Positions 46,952 to 48,689 of a stretch of 64,000 nucleotides of DNA are shown here, piece after piece. The first letter of the stretch is position 1. Each line of letters opens with the position of its first letter. The notes below the pieces were generated by a model. It did not search any database. It was given only the letters and a program-made list of their open reading frames with translations, and was not told the DNA's origin. Made by a program: the position numbers and the translations under genes. Source of the DNA: an uncultured Acidimicrobiales bacterium (lineage in GTDB: Bacteria > Actinomycetota > Acidimicrobiia > Acidimicrobiales > Aldehydirespiratoraceae); contig CAJQPN010000024.1 in the NCBI GenBank assembly GCA_905480195.1, positions 1-64,000 on the forward strand, in the 5' to 3' direction.

Positions 46952-48103
46952 ATGACAGACACACCCTTCGACGTCGCCGAGATCGACCGGCTGCTTACGA
47001 CGACTCGCACCGTGCGCAAGCGTCTCGACTTCGACCGCGACGTTTGCGACCAGATCATCTTCGATTGCATCGACATCGCCGAGCAGGCACCGAGCGGCGG
47101 TAACGACGCGAGTCGCCGCTGGATCGTCATCCGCGACGAAGCGACGAAGCAGAAGTGCGGCGAGATCTACCGACGAAACGGCGACTTCATGATCAACGTC
47201 GCGGACCGCCTCGAAGGCAGCGGGCACGGCAAGGAACACGTCTTCAGCTCGTCGGCGTATCTGGTCGAGAACTTCGCCAAGGCGCCCGCCCTGGTCATCG
47301 CCGCGATTTGGGGAGAGCACGATAACTCCGGTCGGCCGGGTTTGTTCGACTCCGTCATTCAGTCGGCGTGGAGCTTCAACCTCGCACTTCGCGCCCGTGG
47401 CCTCGGTTCGGCGTGGACCACGCTCCTCAACGCAAGCGTCGACGAGCTGGCCGAGCTCCTCGGTATTCCGCCCGGGGTCACCACGATCGTCACCTTCCCG
47501 GTCGCGTACACGAAGGGCACCGACTTCAAGCCGGTCGCCCGCCGCCCCGCCGAGCAGATCACGTACTTCGACCGCTGGGGCTACACCCGGGCCCGAGCGA
47601 GCGAGGATGGTGGCGCCCACTTCGAGGACGGCCCCGGCGTGGTCGCCGAGGTCGACATCGAGGCTCCCCCGAAGGCGGTCTGGCCGATCGTGTCCGACAT
47701 CAGGTTCCCGGCAGGCGCCAACACCGAACTGCAGGGCGCCGAGTGGAAGTCCGACGAGCGCGGGGTCGGTGCGGTCTTCGTCGGCCACAACAAACTCGGT
47801 GACAACGAGTGGAGTGTCGACAACCACATCACTGCTTTCGAGGAGGGCCGGGTCTTCGAATGGTCGACCGTCGACCCCACAAACCCAGGAGCTCGCTGGC
47901 GGTTCGAAATCATGGATCAAGGCGTCGGCAGTCGGCTCCGGTTCTCGGTGGAGATCGGTACCGCGAACAACCTCACCTATCCGATGGCGATGGCATCCGA
48001 CGACCCGGTCGCCGTCCTGAACGGCCGCCGCAAAGGGATCAAGGCCAACATGCAGAAGACCCTCGACGCCATGAAAGCGGCCGTGGAGGGTGCTCGGGCG
48101 TGA
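46952..48103 (+). CDS. Nitroreductase-SRPBCC fusion protein
   Basis: N-term RTVRKRLDFDRDVCDQIIFDCIDIAEQAPSGGNDASRRWIVI...GLGSAWTTLL..ELLGIPPGVTTIVTFPVAY; C-term VVAEVDIEAPPKAVWPIVSDIRFPAGANTELQGAEWKSDERGVGAVFVGHN (SRPBCC). Confidence 0.85.
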   Translation: MTDTPFDVAEIDRLLTTTRTVRKRLDFDRDVCDQIIFDCIDIAEQAPSGGNDASRRWIVIRDEATKQKCGEIYRRNGDFMINVADRLEGSGHGKEHVFSSSAYLVENFAKAPALVIAAIWGEHDNSGRPGLFDSVIQSAWSFNLALRARGLGSAWTTLLNASVDELAELLGIPPGVTTIVTFPVAYTKGTDFKPVARRPAEQITYFDRWGYTRARASEDGGAHFEDGPGVVAEVDIEAPPKAVWPIVSDIRFPAGANTELQGAEWKSDERGVGAVFVGHNKLGDNEWSVDNHITAFEEGRVFEWSTVDPTNPGARWRFEIMDQGVGSRLRFSVEIGTANNLTYPMAMASDDPVAVLNGRRKGIKANMQKTLDAMKAAVEGARA

Positions 48104-48140
48104 CCCAAACCGAGCCGTTCACCAACACAGCGACCGCACA

Positions 48141-48689
48141 ATGCCCATGAATCGGCCCACGCTCGGCGAGCCCGCTCCCGAGATCAACCTGCGAGATGCC
48201 ACCGGAGATCCGTGGTGTTCCGCCGATCACCGAGGCCGAACACTCCTGCTCATCTTTCACCGTCACATCCATTGACTGCCGTGCGCAGCGCACGCCGCCG
48301 CCGTGCGCGACCGGCTCGACGAGTTCGCTCCGAACACCGACGTGGTCGTGGTGACCTTCACCGATTCCGAACGGCTCGAGGGCTACCTCGGCCGCAACGA
48401 TCTGCCGTTTCCGGTCGTGATCGACCCGGACCGCACCGCGTATCGAGCATTCGGTCTCGGCCGAGCGTCGATCGCCCGGGCGTGGGGTGTCCGTCCGGCG
48501 TTGGCCTATCTTCGGCTCTTCGCCCGGGGCCGGTGGCGTGACCTCCGCCGACCCACCGAAGACACCCTGCAGTTGGGCGGCGACTTCGTGATCAGCCCCG
48601 ATGGCGCACTCGTCTACGGCTTCTGGTCCAGCGGCCCCGACGATCGCCCTCGAATCGAAGAACTGATCGCTGCGAGCGAACAAGGCTGA
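48141..48689 (+). CDS. Candidate selenocysteine-containing AhpC/TSA-like redoxin (in-frame TGA at 48273-48275 in a UxxC motif)
   Basis: One continuous frame: MPMNRPTLGEPAPEINLRDATGDPWCSADHRGRTLLLIFHRHIH-U-LPCAAHAAAVRDRLDEFAPNTDVVVVTFTDSERLEGYLGRNDLPFPVVIDPDRTAYRAFGLGRASIARAWGVRPALAYLRLFARGRWRDLRRPTEDTLQLGGDFVISPDGALVYGFWSSGPDDRPRIEELIAASEQG*. Confidence 0.75.
48288..48308 (+). promoter_or_regulatory. Candidate bacterial SECIS hairpin
   Basis: GCGCACG-CCGCCGC-CGTGCGC: perfect 7-bp stem, 7-nt loop; loop starts 19 nt after the TGA. Confidence 0.5.

Follow-up and report, generated by a model that had tools for sequence, protein, structure and literature searches.

A SelL-related redoxin gene with a conserved in-frame UGA, a predicted selenoprotein of an actinobacterial lineage

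Introduction

Does the TGA at positions 48273-48275 end a gene, or is it read as selenocysteine (Sec)? In the 64,000-nucleotide stretch of DNA analyzed here, termed the window, the ORF list enters 48090-48275 and 48303-48689 separately, as mechanical ORF calling breaks the redoxin gene at this codon. Both ORFs lie in the same frame, with the TGA as its sole interruption, exactly where the initial annotation had placed it when it proposed a UxxC selenoprotein of the AhpC/TSA type. In Prx-like folds, a UGA in place of a redox Cys is a textbook case. We analyzed the reading frame, the relatives, the Sec machinery of the genome and the RNA hairpin downstream of the codon.

Results

Gene structure, family and fold

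The gene and its two redox codons, set within the motif HRHIH-U-LPC, are delineated as follows:

48147..48689, forward strand: predicted selenoprotein gene encoding a SelL-related redoxin, 180 codons with UGA as Sec
48273..48275, forward strand: in-frame TGA, predicted Sec43, first position of UxxC (aligned codons; C/U-invariant alignment column)
48282..48284, forward strand: TGC codon for Cys46, the putative resolving residue of UxxC (aligned codons and alignment)

The natural stop of the gene is also a TGA (48687-48689). An alternative start at ATG 48141 is possible, but ATG 48147 appears the more likely one, because the closest relative retrieved (L007) keeps only the ATG equivalent to 48147. 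Counted from this start, Sec would occupy position 43 and Cys46 would be the second redox residue; the codon number of 45 given initially holds for the start at 48141.

The fused product of 180 amino acids matched Pfam AhpC-TSA with 6.8e-16 over residues 7-155, spanning the TGA, and the family NF040769, "SelL-related redox protein", with 133.2 bits against a curated cut-off of 120 (residues 9-176, profile positions 2-172 of 173). It shares with NF040769 a full-length match, the redox U/CxxU/C site and the QLGGDFVI block common to the relatives found here, whereas the window copy is of the UxxC and not the UxxU form. The fused product is a single AhpC/TSA-type redoxin of the thioredoxin-fold superfamily, in line with the initial proposal.

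The AlphaFold model adopted a thioredoxin fold with a confident pLDDT of 89, with Bcp/PrxQ, ResA and AhpE as the best structural neighbors (TM-scores, taken by query length, reached 0.75), in agreement with the sequence profiles. A sequence search found no solved structure of the SelL-related family itself. The predicted model places Sec43 immediately before helix 44-55, as in these neighbors, which have a similar fold and carry the catalytic residue at a helix start, yet their identity to the window protein is only about 15-21%. In contrast to them, the window protein lacks PxxxTxxC, carries RH before Sec, and contains a helical insert and the QLGGDFVI block after it. Residues U43, C46, R39 and H40 were invariant in an alignment of 33 sequences.

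These features bear on the chemistry of the protein. A true peroxidase of the Prx-like type, with Sec as the peroxidatic residue, would fit the AhpC-TSA match and the presence of the peroxiredoxins Bcp/PrxQ and AhpE among the best structural matches, but the peroxiredoxin signature PxxxT/SxxC is absent, with a Leu36/Ile-type residue at -7 and the invariant His40 at -3, and the UxxC spacing recalls the CxxC motif of TlpA/ResA. We consider a peroxidase role rather unlikely. Because PxxxTxxC is absent, the protein is most likely not a canonical peroxiredoxin but a putative Sec-containing thiol:disulfide oxidoreductase (Sec43/Cys46). The Prx wording of the initial annotation is loose for a protein of the UxxC thiol:disulfide-type branch.

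Conservation of the TGA among relatives

A search of contigs from one genome per species yielded 44 relatives with 30-86% identity, 43 of which cover the site. One of the six search patterns spanned the site and carried Cys there, whereas the other five lay away from it, so that the retrieval should not favor TGA. All 43 covering relatives had TGA at the site, and they comprised Actinomycetota, Chloroflexi, Planctomycetota and Deltaproteobacteria/Myxococcales. From a survey of the class (296 genomes), we inspected thirty loci, including three duplicates of sequences in the set; they gave 26 TGA and 4 Cys codons. Pooled with the window, the 74 sequences thus carried TGA or a Cys codon without exception (70 TGA, 3 TGC, 1 TGT), and the residue aligned in the non-TGA relatives was Cys, never Trp. 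This places the TGA at the first redox Cys of the motif, as initially claimed. Within the same taxonomic family, each of the 18 strong matches, window included, contained exactly one in-frame stop, always TGA. A genome of the same genus (85% identity) and L007 (86%) both retained the TGA with no other lesion.

The homologous frame runs on past the TGA in 44 loci at 30-86% identity. Compared with L007, Ka/Ks was about 0.20 for the part upstream of the TGA and 0.13 for the downstream part, in which 37 of the 53 differences fell on third positions. Purifying selection acts on both flanks of the TGA, and the downstream frame is conserved as the initial annotation had supposed.

A pseudogene, in which the TGA is a nonsense mutation of a former CxxC redoxin, would account for the two ORFs seen by gene finders. 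It is refuted by the conservation of the TGA across genera and phyla, the identical codon being present in 70/74 sequences, and it is at odds with the selection on both flanks and the lack of any other lesion. An error of sequencing or assembly in a TGC or TGT codon might be suspected in a draft, MAG-like assembly, but the TGA occurs at the same codon in independent assemblies of other projects, which refutes this explanation as well.

Variation within the family was seen at several loci. The cultured relative Ilumatobacter nonamiensis has a copy of the UxxC form (L027). Two in-frame TGA codons, giving a SelL-like UxxU motif, were present in L030, L033, L034, L036, L045 and L046 from Chloroflexi/Dehalococcoidia and Myxococcales. 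Three further loci (L085, L087 and L088, in genomes G255, G277 and G270, respectively) have the same TGA in a ULFP or ULFY motif that lacks the second-position Cys, and from their sequences they appear as a Sec-only branch of the SelL-related family. On each of two contigs (G210:C84 and G070:C153), two TGA-bearing members lie a few kilobases apart as local paralogues. A weaker family match (62 bits; G186:C14:42437-42958) has a single TAG instead of TGA and may be a broken gene.

Selenocysteine machinery of the genome

The window's own assembly, a draft, MAG-like one of 2.78 Mb and 87% completeness, was searched family by family. It contains a tRNA-Sec on contig C47 (64 bits by Rfam; called tRNA-SeC with anticodon tca (UCA) by ARAGORN), adjacent selA and selB genes on contig C60 (SelA 375 bits, SelB 281 bits) and selD (SelD 368 bits), all on contigs other than that of the window. 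Together with the conserved TGA and the family match, this machinery supports the initial reading of a UxxC selenoprotein. We sought every finding that the initial annotation had named as a refutation and encountered none of them.

Decoding of the UGA as another residue, be it Trp, by near-cognate suppression or by a change of the code, or a regulated termination at this codon, is highly improbable: TGA serves as a normal stop, including at the end of the redoxin gene itself, Cys and never Trp is aligned in the non-TGA relatives, and a tRNA-Sec with the anticodon UCA is present.

Two other genes of the genome carry an in-frame TGA. In selD it occupies the classic Sec position in the motif GAGUGCK (L060 1471-1721; G000:C3, about 80.8 kb), and in the gene for the formate dehydrogenase alpha subunit (FdhA) it lies within NRTUHAPSVVG (L093 1700-1959; G000:C15, about 46.9 kb). 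SelD and FdhA are thus predicted to be two further standard selenoproteins. A scan of the window for more genes with an in-frame TGA, with candidates ranked by GC3, revealed no convincing redox motif.

Across the class, selA was present in 51 of the 55 genomes with a TGA-bearing member (about 60 bits or more), against a background of 213/296, with a Fisher p of 5e-5 that is indicative only, as the genomes share ancestry. For two of the four exceptions without selA (G196 and G188), a SelB C-terminal fragment was found in a very short, truncated frame, probably located at a contig edge or break. Among the five strongest stop-free matches, four genomes (G203, G111, G194 and G177) had no selA among the matches listed, and G032 has selA. 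Within the taxonomic family, all 17 TGA carriers besides the window matched selA, though in one case only partially.

A candidate bSECIS hairpin

Published rules for the bSECIS demand a loop of 3-9 nt, a stem of 4-16 bp, a G within the first two loop positions, a spacing of 16-37 nt and an energy no higher than -7.5 kcal/mol (PMC13188914). Two registers were delineated downstream of the UGA:

48288..48308, forward strand: candidate bSECIS hairpin, stem 48288-48293/48303-48308 (6 bp), loop 48294-48302 (9 nt)
48294..48315, forward strand: alternative bSECIS register, stem 48294-48301/48307-48314, loop CGUGC 48302-48306

The first register is near-perfect in the window and falls within the published rules, its loop beginning with G, its position 18 nt past the UGA and its energy being -8.6 kcal/mol. 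The second, mutually exclusive register is used by many close relatives; it is imperfect in the window (-8.0 kcal/mol) and forms perfect stems of 7-8 bp in L008, L010, L011, L015 and L063.

The minimum free energy fold of the window over 43-61 nt after the UGA had no extra stability compared with dinucleotide shuffles (z between about +1 and +1.7), nor any excess over synonymous shuffles (z 0.13). Taken alone, the window hairpin is weak evidence, the DNA being GC-rich, so we compared the whole family with synonymous-codon shuffles in which all encoded proteins stay unchanged. The pair-score z reached 6.4 for the 48294-48315 register, 5.9 over 28 close sequences for the 48288-48308 register and 7.7 for the register of the distant relatives. 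Other registers were mostly near a z of zero with a few at about 4, and sliding of the 3' partner destroyed the score. Likewise, the bSECIS rules were passed by 54% of the close relatives versus 19% of their synonymous shuffles, and by 77% versus 10% for the distant ones. Unrestricted folding of the close relatives gave no significant difference from synonymous shuffles (mean z -0.35). The hairpin signal therefore stems from the family and not from the window's single sequence, and it emerges only when the stem register is fixed or the bSECIS rules are applied. The stem registers were picked after inspection of the sequences, with several being tried, which calls for some caution; the large z-values and the independent rule-based test survive this post-hoc choice.

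Gene neighborhood

Directly adjoining upstream (window 46952-48103) lies a gene for a fusion of a nitroreductase domain and a polyketide cyclase/START-like domain, and a PNPOx-like gene follows downstream. Their linkage to the selenoprotein gene is confined to the genus or its closest relatives. We rejected the neighborhood as a functional clue, since the nitroreductase/polyketide-cyclase and PNPOx genes are separate from the selenoprotein gene outside the genus.

Discussion

We put the probability at roughly 95% that 48147-48689 encodes a SelL-related selenoprotein, whose UGA would be translated as Sec by means of SelB, tRNA-Sec and the downstream hairpin, with Sec43 carrying out redox chemistry. 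SelB and tRNA-Sec would decode the UGA at 48273-48275 in vivo, with the hairpin within the coding sequence just downstream directing the insertion. Located at the helix start of the thioredoxin-fold domain, Sec43 would act as the nucleophile attacking a disulfide, or with lower probability a peroxide, and the resulting transient Sec43-Cys46 selenenylsulfide would then be reduced by a cellular thiol system. Most family members of this actinobacterial class use Sec and few use Cys, and some (ULFP/ULFY) have no resolving Cys; the family may therefore run a reaction specific to selenium, in which Cys would replace Sec only poorly, although we regard this as doubtful compared with generic disulfide exchange.

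Animal selenoprotein L (SelL), reported by Shchedrina et al. in 2007, a study cited in PMC2874816, is said to contain a UxxU motif with a diselenide, and in animals the SECIS is located in the 3'UTR. By this description, the window protein resembles SelL in being Prx-like with two redox residues two apart, and its bacterial relatives include the UxxU form; its own second position is Cys (TGC), which sets it apart from SelL proper with its UxxU diselenide.

The selenoprotein interpretation of the initial annotation stands, whereas its novelty has to be tempered. The Prx-like thiol:disulfide oxidoreductase family, with UxxC and UxxU forms, has already been described as a selenoprotein (PMC13188914, PMC9312934), Prx-like UxxC families appeared in a survey of marine metagenomes (PMC2398784), and a "ULPU-containing selenoprotein" was found in 26 organisms in a comparative study (PMC5029168). 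The window protein has in common with the oxidoreductase family and the ULPU-containing selenoprotein the AhpC-TSA domain, the ULPC/ULPU motif and the nature of a bacterial selenoprotein, the equivalence of its clade to these published names resting on motif and domain. Given these published families and the UxxU relatives, the gene belongs to a known kind, to which it adds another member. A text search of the literature found no selenoprotein paper for this actinobacterial lineage.

The interest of the gene lies in the annotation, the lineage and the hairpin statistics. A split gene call is corrected, and the family-wide conservation of a hairpin 3' of the UGA, with codon-controlled statistics, would be useful for training selenoprotein finders. 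For the actinobacterial lineage, the locus documents a complete Sec system as predicted from the genome, comprising the redoxin, a Sec-containing SelD, a Sec-containing FdhA and the full sel machinery.
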